From the NCBI GenBank assembly GCA_030424845.1, contig JAUHWC010000002.1:372001-436000 (forward strand): a stretch of 64,000 bases of DNA. Reading direction: 5' to 3'. Both the position numbers and the translations under genes were made by a program. Below the pieces are notes generated by a model. The model saw only the letters and a program-made list of their open reading frames with translations. It was not told where the DNA came from and searched no databases. Below, in pieces: positions 1 to 45,492 of the stretch (the stretch's first letter is position 1; each line of letters starts with the position of its first letter). Source of the stretch: Alphaproteobacteria bacterium (GTDB taxonomy: Bacteria; Pseudomonadota; Alphaproteobacteria; Sphingomonadales; Sphingomonadaceae).

Positions 1-686
1 GCAATCGCCTGCATCCCTTCGCCGAAATTCTCGCGCCGGTGGGTGGTCACGCCGATGATGCGCTTGCCGGCAAAGCGCTTTTCCAGGCCCGCCAACCCTG
101 AGGCAAGCTGCGGCTCCTGCTCGATCCGCGCGGTGACCCATTGCAGCGCATCGATCACCGTATTGCCGGTGACATGCACCGTGCCGGGATCGGTGTTCTC
201 CTTAAGTAGCGCATCGCGCGAGGTCTCGGTCGGCGCGCAATGCAGCGCGGCGATATCGCCGATGATCTTGCGGTTCACCTCTTCGGGCCAGGGGTGGTAG
301 ATATTGCCCGAACGCAGGCCTGCCTCGACATGGCAGACCGGGATCTTGCGATAGTATGCCGCGAGCGCGCCCGCCATGGCGGTGGCGGTATCGCCCTGCA
401 CCACCACCCAATCGGGTTGTTCGGCATCCATCACCCCGCCCAGCCCTGTAAGCAGGCGCGCGGTGAGCGCATCCAGCGTCTGGTCCGGTTGCATCAGGTC
501 GAGATCGTGGTGCGGGCGCACGCCGGAGATTTCCAGCACCTGGTCCAGCATGCCGCGATGCTGGCCTGATACGCAGACGCGCGAATCGAACCGCTCGTCA
601 GCGTCGAGCGCATGGACGAGCGGGAAGAGCTTGATCGCTTCGGGACGCGTGCCGAAGATCGTGAGGATGCGTTTGGAGCCAGCCAT
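1..686 (-). CDS. wecB: UDP-N-acetylglucosamine 2-epimerase (non-hydrolysing), 3' part cut by window edge
   Basis: Interconverts UDP-GlcNAc and UDP-ManNAc in the cytoplasm, supplying ManNAc-type sugars for surface polysaccharide. About 228 N-terminal codons are present; the family is usually near 370-380 residues, so the C-terminal third lies outside the window. The translation begins MAGSKRILTIFGTRPEAIK, the classic N-terminal GTRPEAIK nucleotide-sugar motif. The QGDT, VEAGLRS and HRREN motifs follow in the family order, carrying the expected Asp, Glu and His residues. The start at 686 puts the family motif immediately inside the protein. It is the last gene of a minus-strand run and lies 62 bp after the preceding gene. 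Identification is firm; the biological pathway is inferred. Confidence 0.93.
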   Translation of the reverse strand, partial: MAGSKRILTIFGTRPEAIKLFPLVHALDADERFDSRVCVSGQHRGMLDQVLEISGVRPHHDLDLMQPDQTLDALTARLLTGLGGVMDAEQPDWVVVQGDTATAMAGALAAYYRKIPVCHVEAGLRSGNIYHPWPEEVNRKIIGDIAALHCAPTETSRDALLKENTDPGTVHVTGNTVIDALQWVTARIEQEPQLASGLAGLEKRFAGKRIIGVTTHRRENFGEGMQAI

Positions 687-23670: not shown

Positions 23671-23921
23671 GCGCGGCCTCCTTGGTGCCGCCGGTTAATT
23701 CCCGCTTTCAAGGCGGTGCGGGATGGCGGCCCGGTTCGGGGTCGATTTCTTGCCTGTTGCTCTGCGCGCATAAAGTAAATTCCGCCTTCACAGCGACGGG
23801 TCGAGTCCTAGGAGCGCCGAACCGAGTCCGCACTTATCCACAGGCGGAGAATCGAGCGGCGGCATTTGCCCGAAGGGCGTGGTTGCGCCGGGGCTGCGCG
23901 ATCTCCAGATTGTCAGGTATT

Positions 23922-34943: not shown

Positions 34944-35909
34944 TCAGATACCGCCGCCGGTAAGACGCGAACAGATCAGGTCGAGCTGGTCCAGCGTGCG
35001 GTACCTTATCGTGACGGAGCCCGAACGCGGATCTGCATCGGTGGTGATCTTCACCGGCAGGCCGAGGAATTCCTCCAGGTGGTTCTGGACCGCCTCGATA
35101 TCGGCATCCTGTGCCGGATCGCGCGGTTCGCGCGCCGTGCGACGGCGGCCACCACCCTCTGCGGCACGCACGAGCTTTTCCACCTCGCGCACCGAGAGGT
35201 TCCTGGCAATCGCCTGCCGCGCCAGTTCGGCGGCATTGTCCCTGCCGACCAGGGCGCGGGCATGGCCCATGTCCAGCGCGCCGCTTTCCAGATGACCGAG
35301 CACCTCTTCCGGCAAGCTGAGCAGGCGCAAAAGGTTGGCCACATGGCTGCGCGACTTCTCGACCACGCGGGCAATCTCGGCCTGCGTCATGTCCTCCAGT
35401 TCGGACAACCGCTGGTAGGCACGGGCCTCTTCCACCGGGCTCAGGTCTTCGCGCTGGATATTCTCGATCAGCGCAAGCGCCATCACGTCGCGCTCGCCCA
35501 GGTCGCGAATTAATGCAGGGATTTCATGAAGTTGTGCTTTCTGGGCAGCCCTCCATCGACGCTCGCCCGCTACCAGCCGATACTTGCCACCACCCAGGGG
35601 GGTGACGATGACCGGCTGGATAACACCGCGTGCGGCGATCGATGCGGCAAGCTCTTCCAGCGCCGCCTCGTCGAAATGACGGCGCGGCTGTCCGGGATGT
35701 GGCTGGATTGCTGCAACCGGGAGGTTGGCAAGTCCGTCACCCGTCCTGCCGAGACCGGCAGGCGCGGATGCGGAACCCGCTTCGCCTGGCGCAGAGGTTG
35801 CCAGGGGCTCTTCCCGGCGGCTTTCACCCAACAGGGCACCAAGGCCCTTCCCCAGCTTGCGGCGCGGCGCGACGGGCTTTGCTGCGGCTTGCTTGTCCTG
35901 CGTGCTCAT
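34944..35909 (-). CDS. parB: Chromosome partitioning protein ParB
   Basis: The CTP-dependent DNA clamp that loads at parS and spreads to form the segregation complex. The 321-residue protein has a basic N-terminal ParA-interacting peptide (RRKLGKGLGALLGE), the CTP-binding motif GERRWR (115-120), the ENIQREDLSPVEEARAY motif and a helix-turn-helix at about 175-197 (TQAEIARVVEKSRSHVANLL), with a C-terminal dimer domain. Its start overlaps the parA stop by 4 bp. Four parS sites lie 0.8-3.4 kb upstream, inside the same operon. Confidence 0.96.
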   Translation of the reverse strand: MSTQDKQAAAKPVAPRRKLGKGLGALLGESRREEPLATSAPGEAGSASAPAGLGRTGDGLANLPVAAIQPHPGQPRRHFDEAALEELAASIAARGVIQPVIVTPLGGGKYRLVAGERRWRAAQKAQLHEIPALIRDLGERDVMALALIENIQREDLSPVEEARAYQRLSELEDMTQAEIARVVEKSRSHVANLLRLLSLPEEVLGHLESGALDMGHARALVGRDNAAELARQAIARNLSVREVEKLVRAAEGGGRRRTAREPRDPAQDADIEAVQNHLEEFLGLPVKITTDADPRSGSVTIRYRTLDQLDLICSRLTGGGI

Positions 35910-36682
35910 GCGGCAACCCTTTCTTGCGGCAAGCGTCCGATCAATTCGCGGGCCAGCGCCATATAGGCACGGCTGCCCGGGCAGGCATGGTCATAGACCA
36001 GCGCCGGCAGGCCATGGCTCGGCGCTTCGGACAAGCGGACATTGCGCGGGATGACCGCCTCGAAAACAAGATCTCCCAGGCATTCACGCACGTCATCCGC
36101 CACCTGGTCGGTAAGGCGGTTGCGGCGATCGAACATGGTCAGCGCAACACCGACGATGCCAAGGTCGGGATTGAAGCGCTGTTGCACCTGCTCCACGGTC
36201 TGCAGCAGCTGGCTGAGGCCTTCCAGCGCGAAGAATTCGCACTGCAGCGGCACCAGCAGCGTATCGGCCGCGCACAGCGCATTGAGCGTCAACAGCCCGA
36301 GCGATGGCGGGCAATCGATAAAGCAGATGTCATGATCCCGGTGGCGGGCCAGGGCATCACGCAGGCGATTGCTGCGATTGTCGACGCCCACCAGCTCCAC
36401 TTCGGCACCGCTCAGGTCCACCGTGGCAGGAATGATGTCGAGGCCGGGGATCTTGGTTCGGACGATGCAATCCTCAAGCGGCGCTTCATCTACCAGAACG
36501 TCATAGCTCGACATGTCGCGATGGGCAGCGTCCACGCCGATTCCGGTCGAGGCATTGCCCTGCGGATCAAGGTCGATCAGCAGGGTCTTCCATCCGGTTG
36601 CTGCCATTGCCGTTGCGATATTGATGGCGGTGGTGGTCTTGCCCACCCCGCCCTTCTGGTTGGCTATGGCGATACAGATCAT
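35906..36682 (-). CDS. parA: Chromosome partitioning ATPase ParA
   Basis: A deviant Walker ATPase that drives movement of ParB-parS complexes. The 258-residue protein begins [23 protein letters not shown], with the deviant Walker A at 10-17 including the signature lysine, and has IDLDPQGNASTG and FIDCPPSLGLLTLNAL. No N-terminal DNA-binding domain is present, which is the small chromosomal ParA form. It overlaps rsmG and parB by 4 bp on each side, so the three are translationally coupled. Confidence 0.97.
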   Translation of the reverse strand: MICIAIANQKGGVGKTTTAINIATAMAATGWKTLLIDLDPQGNASTGIGVDAAHRDMSSYDVLVDEAPLEDCIVRTKIPGLDIIPATVDLSGAEVELVGVDNRSNRLRDALARHRDHDICFIDCPPSLGLLTLNALCAADTLLVPLQCEFFALEGLSQLLQTVEQVQQRFNPDLGIVGVALTMFDRRNRLTDQVADDVRECLGDLVFEAVIPRNVRLSEAPSHGLPALVYDHACPGSRAYMALARELIGRLPQERVAA

Positions 36683-37305
36683 TGGATTGGCGGCCTCCCG
36701 TGCCCGATCATGATTCCCGCCTGCGGATCGGTGGCGGATTGTTCCACGTGGAACATCTGGCGCACCGATTCGGGCTGCTCAGCCAATTCTTGACCTGCCG
36801 AGCGCCCCTTGGGCAACAACCAAACGGTCTCCTGTGTGGAAAAACGGGCGGATAAGCTGAGGAGTTTTCCAAGCGGAGCAAAGGCGCGCGCGCAAATGAC
36901 CCGCATTGGTGCGCTCTCGACATTCTCGAGACGGGCACCGTGCACGCGGCATTTCCGGAGTCCGAAATGGCTGGCTACCGCTTCGAGCCAGACGACGCGT
37001 TTCTTCCGCGATTCAACAAGATGGATCTCAAGGTCAGGCCTCGCAATGGCGATGACCAAGCCGGGCATCCCGGCTCCGCTCCCCAGGTCCATCCAGGGCG
37101 ATGTTTCACGTGGAACATGCTGCAACAGCTGGACGCTGTCAGCGATATGGCGCTGCCAGACAGAATTGAGACTGTTTGCAGAAATGAGGTTCTGCTTCTC
37201 GTTCTCTGCAGCAAGGAGGGCGATGAACGCCTCGAAGCGAGCGACTGCCTGTTCATCGCACAGTCCGGCAACAAAGCTGCGGGCCTGTTCTTCATTCTCG
37301 ATCAT
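36679..37305 (-). CDS. rsmG: 16S rRNA (guanine-527-N7)-methyltransferase
   Basis: Methylates G527 of 16S rRNA. The 208-residue protein has the SAM-binding motif [16 protein letters not shown], the [15 protein letters not shown] motif and [13 protein letters not shown], all typical of RsmG/GidB. It overlaps mnmG upstream and parA downstream by 4 bp each. Two parS palindromes lie within its coding sequence (36740-36755 and 37102-37117), encoding FHVE and VPRET in different frames. Confidence 0.95.
36740..36755. other. parS centromere site 1 (inside rsmG)
   Basis: TGTTCCACGTGGAACA is a perfect 16-bp palindrome matching the bacterial parS consensus (TGTTTCACGTGAAACA) at 14 of 16 positions. It lies in the 3' end of rsmG, about 830 bp upstream of the parB start. 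Confidence 0.93.
37102..37117. other. parS centromere site 2 (inside rsmG)
   Basis: TGTTTCACGTGGAACA differs from the parS consensus at one position. It lies in the middle of rsmG, 362 bp from site 1. Confidence 0.93.
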
Positions 37306-39164
37306 GCGGCCTGCTCCGATGCTGTGCGACGGCGCGCGTGAACCAGCACGGCGGCAAGCGCCGCCGGGGTAATGCCGCGCACCCTGCCGGCAGCCGCCAG
37401 GGTGGCCGGCTCGGCGTGGCTGAGGCGCTCCACCATCTCGTTCGACAGGCCCGGGACATCGCCATAGGGAAAGCCGGGGCCAAGGATCACATTCTCGCTG
37501 GCGCGCAAATCCCGCAGTTCGGCATCCTGCCGTTCGAGATAGGGCGCATAGGCAGCATCTTCGGCCAGTTCTGCTGCGAGGGCTGATCGCGGGTCACATT
37601 CGCGCGGGAGGAAGTCTGCCAGCTGCTCGATCGCAATGTCCGAGAAACGCAGCCATTCACGCAAGGTCAGGCGACCGGCATCGCTTTTCGCGGAAATCCC
37701 CGCAGACATCAGTTCTCCCGCACTGACCTTGCGATCAAGCGCGGTGTTCCACGTGGAACATCCGGCTTTGCGGCGCTCGAACCATTCATTGCGCTCCTTA
37801 CCGAGACATCCTGCCTCGACAGCAAGCGATGTGAGCCGGGTGGCGGCATTGTTGGCCCGCAGGCGCAAGCGGTACTCCGCCCGCGCGGTCAACATGCGGT
37901 AAGGCTCGCTCACGCCGTGCAGCGTCAGGTCATCAACCATCACGGCCATGTAGCTGTTGGCACGGTCAAGCCGCACCGGCGGCTTGCCCAGGAGCGCGCT
38001 GGCAGCCTGCATTCCTGCAATCAGCCCCTGAGCGGCAGCTTCCTCATAACCCGTGGTTCCGTTGATCTGGCCTGCGCAATAAAGGCCCGGCATCGCCTTC
38101 AACTGCAGATCCTGTCCCAGCGCGCGCGGATCGATATGGTCATACTCGACAGCATAGCCAGGCACTTCCATCTCTACATGCTCGAGCCCCTCCATCGTGC
38201 GCAGCATGGCAAGCTGTACGTCGGCAGGCAAGGAGGTGCTTATGCCGTTGGGATAGACAAGGTGCGTGTCCAGCCCTTCAGGTTCGAGGAAAACCTGGTG
38301 GCCATCCCTGTCGGCAAAGCGATGGATCTTGTCCTCGATCGAGGGGCAATAGCGTGGTCCGGCAGCGCCGATGGCACCGGTAAAAAGGGGCGAACGGTGA
38401 AGATTGTCGGCAATGACCTGGTGGCTGGCCGGATTGGTGCGGGTGATCGCGCAGAAGACCTGCGGGTTCACCCGGCCCGGCGAGAGCGGAGACATGGTCC
38501 ACGGATCATCGTCGGAAGGCTGTTCCTGCAGCCTCGCCCAATCGATCGTGCGGCCATCAAGGCGCGGAGGCGTCCCGGTCTTCAGGCGAGCCATGGGAAG
38601 CTGCGCCTCGCGCATTTGCTGCGCCAGCACCTGCGCGGAGGATTCGCCGATGCGCCCGCCGGTCATCCGCTCCTCGCCGCGGAACAACGTGCCGCCGAGG
38701 AAGGTCCCCGTGCACAGGATGACCGCCCGCGCCTGCAACCGCGTGCCATCGCCCATGGCGATTCCAGTCACGCGGTCTCCGGAAAACAGCAGGCTCGCGG
38801 CCTCCCCCTCAAAGACCTCCAGATTGTCCTGGGCGGCGATCATCTGCTGGATCGCGGCGCGGAACAGCTTGCGGTCCGCCTGCACGCGCGGCCCCTGCAC
38901 GGCACTGCCCTTGGATCGGTTGAGCATGCGGTAATGGATTGCGGCTGCATCGGCTGCGCGGCCGATCAACCCGTCAAAGGCATCCACTTCACGGACAAGA
39001 TGTCCCTTGCCGAGGCCGCCAATGGCGGGATTGCAGCTCATCGCCCCAATCGCGGCCTTGTCGAAGCTTATCAGGCCGGTGCGCACACCCATGCGCGCGG
39101 CAACAGCGGCTGCTTCGCAACCGGCGTGGCCACCGCCGACAACAAGGATATCAAACGCGCTCAT
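37302..39164 (-). CDS. mnmG: tRNA uridine-5-carboxymethylaminomethyl modification enzyme MnmG
   Basis: With MnmE it installs the cmnm5 group on wobble uridine 34 of several tRNAs. The 620-residue FAD enzyme starts with the dinucleotide motif [14 protein letters not shown] and has the MnmG signatures [15 protein letters not shown] and [16 protein letters not shown]. Its stop overlaps rsmG by 4 bp. A parS palindrome lies in frame within it (37745-37760, encoding CSTWN). The order mnmE-mnmG-rsmG-parA-parB is a conserved origin-proximal cluster. Confidence 0.97.
37745..37760. other. parS centromere site 3 (inside mnmG)
   Basis: A second copy of the perfect palindrome TGTTCCACGTGGAACA, here within the mnmG coding region and read in the third possible frame relative to sites 1 and 2. 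Confidence 0.93.
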
Positions 39165-39243: not shown

Positions 39244-39259
39244 TGTTTCACGTGGAACA
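39244..39259. other. parS centromere site 4 (mnmE-mnmG gap)
   Basis: TGTTTCACGTGGAACA, identical to site 2, ends 1 bp before the mnmE stop codon in the 96-bp gap between mnmE and mnmG. It is the site nearest the presumed origin, about 5.1 kb away. Confidence 0.93.
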
Positions 39260-43328: not shown

Positions 43329-44345
43329 TTAACCGCGGACAATTTCCAGCAGGCGTTCAACATGCGCGATTGGCGTCGTCTTATCGATCCCGTGGCCCAG
43401 GTTGAAGACATGCGGACGCCCCTCGAATGCTGCCAGCACATCGCGTGCCGCCTCTTCCAGCTCGTTGCCGCCGGAAATCAGCAGCAGCGGATCAAGGTTG
43501 CCCTGCACCGGCAGACCGTCAGGCAGCTCGCGGTGGACCCAGCGCGGATCCTGCGTCTCGTCAACGCCCACGGCATCGACACCCGTTTCGCGGGCATAGG
43601 CAGGCAGCTTGGCCCCCGCACCCTTGGGAAAGCCGATGATCGGCGTATCGGGGTGCTTTGCCCGCACCGCATCAACGATCCGCACCGTGGGCGCCACCAC
43701 CCAGCGTTCAAACTGGCGCGGTGAAAGGCTGCCCGACCAGCTGTCGAACAGTTGCACGGCTTCGGCACCCGCTTCGATCTGCCTGCACAGATATTCGATG
43801 GTGGACTCGACGATGGCATCGATGATCGCACCGAAGGCTTGCGGATCGCGATAGGCCATGGCGCGGGTTACGTGGTGGTCCTTGCTGCCCTGCCCCGCCA
43901 CCATATAGGTCGCCACCGTCCAGGGAGAGCCGGCAAAGCCCAGCATCGTCACCCCTTCGGGCAATTGCGCACGGCACAGGCGCACGGTCTCGTAGATCGG
44001 ATCGAAATGATGCGGCGCAGGTGTCAGCGCATCGAGTGCGGTATCCACCATCTTCGGCGACAGATGCGGGCCTTCGCCGGCAAGGAACTGCAAATCCTGC
44101 CCCAGCGCATGCGGCACGATCAGGATGTCGGAAAACAGGATCGCCCCGTCGAAGCCGAAACGGCGGATCGGCTGTAGCGTGATCTCGGCCGCGGCTTCGC
44201 TGTCATAGACCAGCTCGAGGAAGCCGCCCTTCTCCGCCCGCAAGGCGCGATATTCAGGCAGGTAGCGCCCTGCCTGGCGCATGAGCCAGACCGGCCGCCT
44301 GTCAGCTATTTTTCCGTTCAGGGTATCGAGAAGAAGTCCGGGCAT
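43329..44345 (-). CDS. hemE: Uroporphyrinogen decarboxylase
   Basis: Decarboxylates uroporphyrinogen III to coproporphyrinogen III. The 338-residue protein contains the signature RRPVWLMRQAGRYLPEYR near the N-terminus and GFAGSPWTVATYMV, both diagnostic. ATG 44345 is used; a TTG four codons upstream is a possible alternative. Its 5' end borders the AT-rich presumed replication origin, as hemE does in Caulobacter and Rickettsia. Confidence 0.97.
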   Translation of the reverse strand: MPGLLLDTLNGKIADRRPVWLMRQAGRYLPEYRALRAEKGGFLELVYDSEAAAEITLQPIRRFGFDGAILFSDILIVPHALGQDLQFLAGEGPHLSPKMVDTALDALTPAPHHFDPIYETVRLCRAQLPEGVTMLGFAGSPWTVATYMVAGQGSKDHHVTRAMAYRDPQAFGAIIDAIVESTIEYLCRQIEAGAEAVQLFDSWSGSLSPRQFERWVVAPTVRIVDAVRAKHPDTPIIGFPKGAGAKLPAYARETGVDAVGVDETQDPRWVHRELPDGLPVQGNLDPLLLISGGNELEEAARDVLAAFEGRPHVFNLGHGIDKTTPIAHVERLLEIVRG

Positions 44346-44647
44346 CGAGGGGTCCAAACAATATAATATATATATTTATAAGGGTTGTAGGACTCTGTTG
44401 GTCCTGTGGATTTCGGGGATAGCGCGCCCTTGCCCGATTTCTCCCGCCGTGAACAGGGCAAAGCTGCACCGGCGACTCTGCAGCAAAGCGCGGTCAAACG
44501 GAATCTGTCCCCATAATCCCCAGCCGGTGGATAGCGCTGCCGGCCTGTCCAGAACCCTGCCGCGGAATCGGCCGGTAGCGGGGGTGCAAATGCATCCCGT
44601 GCTTGTCCGCAGCGCCGTCCCGTGGTTTATGGACCAACTTTTCCACA
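44346..44647. other. oriC: Probable chromosomal replication origin (oriC)
   Basis: A 301-bp gap between the divergent hemE and PDRP genes, the same gene pair that flanks the Caulobacter and Rickettsia origins. Positions 44360-44381 are 22 consecutive A/T bases, a likely unwinding element, in an otherwise GC-rich genome. DnaA-box-like 9-mers are TTTTCCACA (44639-44647, 8/9 to TTATCCACA), TGTGGATTT (44405-44413) and GGTGGATAG (44526-44534), the last two 7/9 on the reverse strand. Four GANTC sites (44391, 44474, 44501, 44565) fit CcrM-type methylation control. parS sites lie 5-8 kb to the left. Confidence 0.75.
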
Positions 44648-45492
44648 TGGCCCTTCTGCACCTTCATCTGCTTTCGGACTCGACCGGCGAAACGCTCGAG
44701 ATGATCGCCAAGGCTGCGCTGGCGCAGTTCGACGATCCCGACGTCACGCGCCATTTCTGGCCGATGGTGCGCTCGAAACAGCATCTCGACAGGATCATGC
44801 AGGAATTCAAGGCCAACCCCGGCCTTGTGCTCTATACGCTCGCCAACCCCGAAACACGTGCAAGGCTGGAAGAACGCTGCCGTACGCTGGGCCTGCCGCA
44901 TGTCGCGGCGCTGGACGGGGTGATGCATGCGCTGGAAGAACGGTTGGGTCAGGAAGCCCATTCGCGCCCCGGTGCCCGGCACGTGATGGACGAGGCCTAT
45001 TTCGACCGTGTCGATGCCATCCAGTTCACCATCGCCCATGATGACGGGATCGGCTGGGAAGCCTGGGAAGAGGCGGATATCGTTCTGGCCGGGGTCAGCC
45101 GCACCTCGAAGACGCCGACCAGCATCTATCTCGCCAATCGCGGCTACAAGGTCGCCAATATCCCGCTGGTGGTGGAAAGCCCGCCGCCGCCATCGTTGTT
45201 CCAGCTGCGCCACCCGATGGTTGTGGGCCTGACAACCGCGCCCAAGCGCCTGATCCAGATCCGCCGCAACCGCCTGCTCTCGCTCAACGAGAAGGCCGAG
45301 ACATCCTATGTCGACGAAGAGCGGGTGGAAAAGGAAGTGGCCTTCGCGCGCCGCATGTTTGCCGACAATGGCTGGCCGGTGATCGACGTAACCCGCCGCT
45401 CGATCGAGGAAACGGCCGCGGCCGTCATCAAGCTCTACCAGGAACGCGCTGCCCGCGACCGCCCGCCGCGCGTCGGCCCCAAGCCGATCTGA
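44647..45492 (+). CDS. ppsR: Pyruvate, phosphate dikinase / PEP synthase regulatory protein (DUF299)
   Basis: A bifunctional ADP-dependent kinase and phosphorylase that switches PPDK or PEP synthase off and on. From ATG 44647 the protein has 281 residues, the family size, starting LHLHLLSDSTGETLEMIAKAAL, with the P-loop-like GVSRTSKT (149-156) and NIPLVVESPPPPSLF. It is the homologue of Rickettsia RP001, the gene that marks the right side of oriC. An ATG at 44629 is a possible alternative; neither has a strong Shine-Dalgarno. A DnaA-box-like 9-mer overlaps the start codon. Confidence 0.92.
   Translation: MALLHLHLLSDSTGETLEMIAKAALAQFDDPDVTRHFWPMVRSKQHLDRIMQEFKANPGLVLYTLANPETRARLEERCRTLGLPHVAALDGVMHALEERLGQEAHSRPGARHVMDEAYFDRVDAIQFTIAHDDGIGWEAWEEADIVLAGVSRTSKTPTSIYLANRGYKVANIPLVVESPPPPSLFQLRHPMVVGLTTAPKRLIQIRRNRLLSLNEKAETSYVDEERVEKEVAFARRMFADNGWPVIDVTRRSIEETAAAVIKLYQERAARDRPPRVGPKPI

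Follow-up and report, generated by a model that had tools for sequence, protein, structure and literature searches.

The genes hemE, coding for uroporphyrinogen decarboxylase, and PDRP, the RP001 homologue, are separated by a gap of 301 bp in the 64,000-nucleotide stretch of sphingomonad DNA examined here (the window). The source assembly amounts to 2.83 Mb in 9 contigs. The start codon of hemE lies on the minus strand at 44345-44343 and PDRP initiates with ATG at 44647, in divergent orientation. Pfam assignments and coordinates agree with the divergent flanks given in a preliminary description of this DNA, which proposed an origin of replication of the hemE/RP001 type; its remark that genes point away from the gap holds for these two flanking genes. 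The genes it named to the right, maf, aroE, coaE and dnaQ, were recovered by Pfam, the last as a dnaQ-like exonuclease. The genes to the left are those for a UPF0093 protein, rho, mnmE, gidA, gidB and a ParA-type ATPase. Genes and sequence elements are listed in Table 1.

Table 1. Genes and sequence elements at the hemE-PDRP locus, in window numbering
Feature	Position	Strand	Remarks
Putative oriC, entire hemE-PDRP intergenic gap	44346..44646		301 bp
hemE, uroporphyrinogen decarboxylase	43329..44345	-	PF01208
PDRP / COG1806 / RP001 homologue, Kinase-PPPase	44647..45492	+	PF03618
ParA-type ATPase gene	35906..36682	-	PF13614
ORF with ParB-like sequence	34944..35909	-	Judged by eye
A/T-only tract, likely DNA unwinding element	44360..44381		22 bp
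DnaA-box-like R1	44405..44413	-	AAATCCACA on minus strand
DnaA-box-like R2	44514..44522	+	TAATCCCCA; several relatives have TTATCCCCA
DnaA-box-like R3	44526..44534	-	CTATCCACC; several relatives have TTTTCGACA
DnaA-box-like TTGTCCGCA	44603..44611	+	
DnaA-box-like R4	44639..44647	+	TTTTCCACA; shares A of PDRP start codon
GANTC (CcrM-type) site	44391..44395		
GANTC site	44474..44478		
GANTC site	44501..44505		
GANTC site	44565..44569		
Conserved element TCCCGTGGTTTATG	44618..44631	+	
parS	36740..36755		C9:408740
parS	37102..37117		C9:409102
parS	37745..37760		C9:409745
parS	39244..39259		C9:411244

By PDRP, the nearest species-named relative among the matches listed is Alteraurantiacibacter aquimixticola (91%), with two metagenome-assembled genomes ranking above it (94% and 92%); this ranking covers the best 80 of 564 candidate loci, for which names only were taken, and may omit the window's own record.

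Sequence elements in the gap

The gap contains a run of 22 consecutive A/T bases, at exactly the position first reported. No other A/T run in the window reaches 12 bases, and in the 427,483 bases examined from this genome no other reaches 15. The least stable 41-bp duplex of the window begins at 44356; nearest-neighbour values give it -42.2 kcal/mol, where the mean is -63.9 (sd 3.6). Five 9-mers in the gap resemble DnaA boxes, with at most two mismatches to TTATCCACA. The preliminary description was right in reporting such boxes, but its count of three was too low. Only R4 is within one mismatch of TTATCCACA; the other boxes of this gap are weaker. The four GANTC sites were also found as described.

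In 3000 dinucleotide shuffles of this 302-base region, neither five boxes (mean 0.63) nor a 22-base A/T run (mean 7.8) was ever reached, and four GANTC sites occurred with P = 0.004 (mean 0.75). Because the region had been picked beforehand, these values are descriptive, and it is fairer to state that no other 302 bases hold as dense a cluster of boxes, either in the window or across the 427 kb examined from this genome. The next-best clusters, of four boxes each, occur once in L066 and, as an overlapping pair, beside dnaA in L001. Further DnaA-box matches are found inside open frames at window positions 23834 (an exact TTATCCACA) and 36835 (TTTTCCACA). Together with the box at 44639 these make up three of the 16 TTWTCCACA sites of the genome, within 21 kb.

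Conservation in relatives

PDRP was matched in all 40 genus genomes and in 141 of the 149 family genomes, which together make 178 of 186 distinct genomes. The gap was compared in 117 genomes, consisting of the 57 best-matching loci (near loci, this genome included) and 60 picked from the remainder (more distant loci). The divergent hemE-PDRP pair is found in 116 of the 117, with a gap of 286-493 bp. It occurs in all 57 near loci (gap 291-368 bp) and in 59 of the 60 more distant ones (286-493 bp); in L233 hemE was not found within 800 bp of PDRP. The open frame of PDRP extends into the gap (44281-45492), and a longer protein starting there was considered. It was rejected because gap length varies in relatives and the open frame is only 281-285 amino acids in some of them.

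The 116 gaps hold 249 boxes that match TTWTCCACA with at most one mismatch, 42 of them exact, as compared to two, none exact, for the reversed motif. Every gap has at least one such near-consensus box and 89 have at least two. For 12 of the 57 near gaps, among them the present one, a box of this kind appears only when the sequence is extended to include the A of the PDRP ATG. GANTC occurs 523 times, where composition predicts 142. Boxes within one mismatch in the near loci lie at approximate distances from hemE of 54-64 (minus strand), 158-171 (plus, with one at 186), 176-183 (minus) and 288-319 (plus), and their spacing drifts in the more distant loci. The longest A/T run is far shorter in some relatives (5-8 bases).

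When the gaps of 30 genus members were aligned to the window, 85 of the 301 columns were at least 95% identical. Among the 57 aligned gaps four stretches are invariant: CCTGTG at R1 (44403-44408), the four specified bases of the GANTC site at 44474, CTTGT (44602-44606) and TGGTTTAT at 44623-44630. The last of these lies within the element TCCCGTGGTTTATG. The form GTGGTTTAT of this element is carried by 56 of the 57 near gaps and by 27 of the 59 more distant ones (83 of 116 overall), and it usually stands about 17 bases ahead of the R4 position. Comparison of the TCCCGTGGTTTATG element with the DnaA, CtrA and IHF consensus sequences gave no match to any of them.

Position on the chromosome

Four palindromic parS sites were found genome-wide, all of them 5-8 kb to the left of the gap. 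The consensus used was TGTTYCACGTGRAACA, and its reversed form gave no match in 30 genomes. Of the 70 parS sites detected across 29 single-contig relatives, 62 are within 20 kb of PDRP, and the eight exceptions all belong to G076 and G177.

All 30 genomes searched for the dif consensus, with at most three mismatches allowed, contain a dif-like site; there were 37 matches versus three for the reversed pattern. In G091, G109, G133, G164 and G179 two matches represent one place read on both strands, and in G132 and G144 a second, dissimilar match was set aside. The arc from gap to dif spans 0.406-0.497 of the circle in the single-contig relatives, with a mean of 0.470; it is at least 0.40 in 29 of 29 and at least 0.45 in 23 (genome lengths of G004 and G021 were rounded to 0.1 Mb). 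This position opposite the terminus was measured in relatives alone, the dif-like site of the present genome being on another contig, at C7:89039, than the gap, which is on C9. Since the relatives are not independent draws, weight is placed on the pattern rather than on nominal P values.

Origins located at dnaA are common in other bacteria, and a location there was considered for this organism as well. The dnaA gene of this genome is on a different contig (C3:104 kb), and at and after its 3' end there are overlapping clusters of four boxes when two mismatches are allowed (L001:2420-2900). In one of the 29 single-contig relatives, G071, it is dnaA that lies at the greater distance from dif. 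This is the sole exception, the gap being the more distant of the two in the other 28. The best dnaA match has a mean arc to dif of 0.308 and reaches at least 0.40 in just seven of 29, and it lies 198-1996 kb from the gap. Moreover, a search for an A/T run of at least 15 bases in the 3.5 kb around dnaA found none. Taken together, we give an origin at dnaA next to no credence. Seven of the 29 single-contig records (G085, G071, G130, G148, G129, G109 and G165) start within 1.5 kb of dnaA; in six of these, with G071 as the exception, dnaA lies closer to dif than the hemE gap does.

The skew minimum that the preliminary description proposed as a check is not decisive, skew being weak or ambiguous in the stretches sampled. 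The cumulative GC skew of the window has its minimum at 53-54 kb, the skew of the contig is weak with no clean switch at the gap, and the contig stretches to the right of the gap are mixed in sign. In the single-contig genome G017, sampled at 40 places, an equal-arm fit placed the GC optimum at 1.36 Mb, with the gap at 1.3065 Mb (permutation P 0.0014, with neighbours treated as independent). With both ends free the optimum shifts to 0.84-0.88 Mb (0.326 vs 0.303 for the gap). TA skew gave P 0.089 and hexamer bias places the axis 27 of 81. GC skew was likewise insufficient in several Alphaproteobacteria treated in PMC1914354.

Loci without PDRP and the promoter alternative

A PDRP match is absent in eight of the 149 family genomes, of which five have a hemE match and three have none. 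When 600 bp upstream of each of these five hemE genes were scanned, four loci had retained DnaA boxes; there the boxes stay with hemE even without PDRP. L117 has an A/T run of 11 bases and two near-consensus boxes in this region, and L118 an A/T run of 14 bases and one such box. L119 and L120, from one genus, have 11 and 12 near-consensus boxes no more than 360 bp ahead of hemE, compared to a median of two in the 59 more distant gaps, and a GC content of 0.38 and 0.37 over the 600 bp. No box within one mismatch was found over the same length at the fifth hemE locus, L121, which belongs to G046, a genome with 7% contamination whose hemE match is split into two pieces.

These loci bear on the question whether the gap could be merely a promoter region shared by hemE and PDRP. 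In that case its conserved sites would serve transcription, DnaA would be a regulator, and replication would start elsewhere nearby. Divergent genes require promoters in or near the gap, the Caulobacter origin likewise contains hemE promoters, and the overlap of R4 with the PDRP start codon would fit a regulatory role. Promoters and an origin may, however, coexist in one gap. Regulation of transcription alone would leave unexplained the A/T tract, the position opposite dif, the clustering of parS and the 11-12 boxes upstream of hemE in two genomes where the search gave no PDRP. We therefore regard a gap with promoter function only as very improbable. On this sequence evidence, chromosome replication in this sphingomonad very probably starts at the hemE-PDRP gap, which would be its oriC. 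The hemE-type origin first proposed for this position is supported by the boxes and A/T tract of relatives, parS and the opposition to dif, and further by the distance of dnaA and by the boxes found beside hemE where PDRP is missing (four of five loci).

Comparison with known hemE-type origins

According to PMC4741004, which cites Brassinga 2001, the origins of Sphingopyxis granuli TFA and of most Sphingomonadaceae in DoriC are predicted near hemE, with intergenic putative DnaA boxes, a putative DUE and a gene organization conserved in Sphingomonadaceae. The hemE location is thus already published for sphingomonads, and the present locus is a further example of a known origin type. The S. granuli oriC is likewise adjacent to hemE with conserved putative DnaA boxes and DUE, but it belongs to a different genus and its origin call is also a prediction, made by Ori-Finder and comparison (PMC4741004). 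The parS and dif evidence comes from the present analysis and has no mention in the relevant text of PMC4741004. Among the literature matches listed, for which the genus names were not queried, no title dealt with an Alteraurantiacibacter or Aurantiacibacter origin.

The Caulobacter crescentus origin Cori, as described in PMC1914354, shares the hemE and COG1806 flanks, an AT-rich stretch and DnaA boxes. It differs by its five CtrA sites and its IHF site, neither kind of which was matched here. The gap contains no CtrA site (TTAA-N7-TTAA) within two mismatches and no IHF site (WATCAANNNNTTR, a loose consensus) within one. Exact CtrA sites occur in none of the 116 gaps and sites within one mismatch in 14; the IHF consensus is found within one mismatch in 25 of the 57 near gaps, with no exact match. 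The Rickettsia prowazekii origin is flanked by hemE and COG1806 as here, whereas that of Wolbachia has hemE on one side but COG1253 on the other; CtrA and IHF sites are reported for such origins in varying number, with CtrA sites absent in a few (PMC1914354). By its flanks, DnaA-box cluster, AT-rich stretch and nearby parA and parS, and by its position opposite the terminus in relatives, the gap is of the hemE type. It is not classed as Cori in the strict CtrA-gated sense.

Sphingomonadales retain the CckA-ChpT-CtrA relay (PMC2877005), and ctrA is reported to be dispensable in Sphingomonas melonis (PMC8116508), with which the lack of CtrA sites agrees. The genome encodes DnaA with N-terminal, ATPase and helix-turn-helix domains. 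It also encodes a CcrM-like methylase with a RAMA domain (C7:518.9 kb) that scores 617 bits, under the NCBI cut-off of 830 for the Caulobacter equivalog.

Proposed initiation mechanism and implications

From these features we infer a route of DnaA binding, melting, initiation and segregation, and a role for methylation. ATP-bound DnaA, encoded elsewhere in the genome, would bind the boxes over 44405-44647 (R1-, R2+, R3-, TTGTCCGCA and R4+) and oligomerize toward the A/T tract at 44360-44381, which would melt. Helicase loading would follow, after which two forks would depart, one passing through hemE, rho, gidA and parA and the other through PDRP, maf, aroE and coaE. ParB, bound to all four parS sites at 5-8 kb left of the gap, would then segregate the new origins. 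Methylation of the four GANTC sites by CcrM could signal whether the origin has just been copied.

The present assignment locates the origin in a draft genome where GC skew cannot do so, and dif position, parS and footprinting are in accord throughout the family. Closed records cut at dnaA probably do not begin at the origin. The absence of CtrA sites raises the question of what gates initiation in sphingomonads. One speculative answer, which we consider rather doubtful at present, is that their origins are a CtrA-free version of the hemE type in which control has shifted to dense GANTC marks and to the TCCCGTGGTTTATG element. This element, nearly fixed in the lineage of the window and placed beside the outermost DnaA box, might then be bound by an as yet undescribed regulator of initiation.
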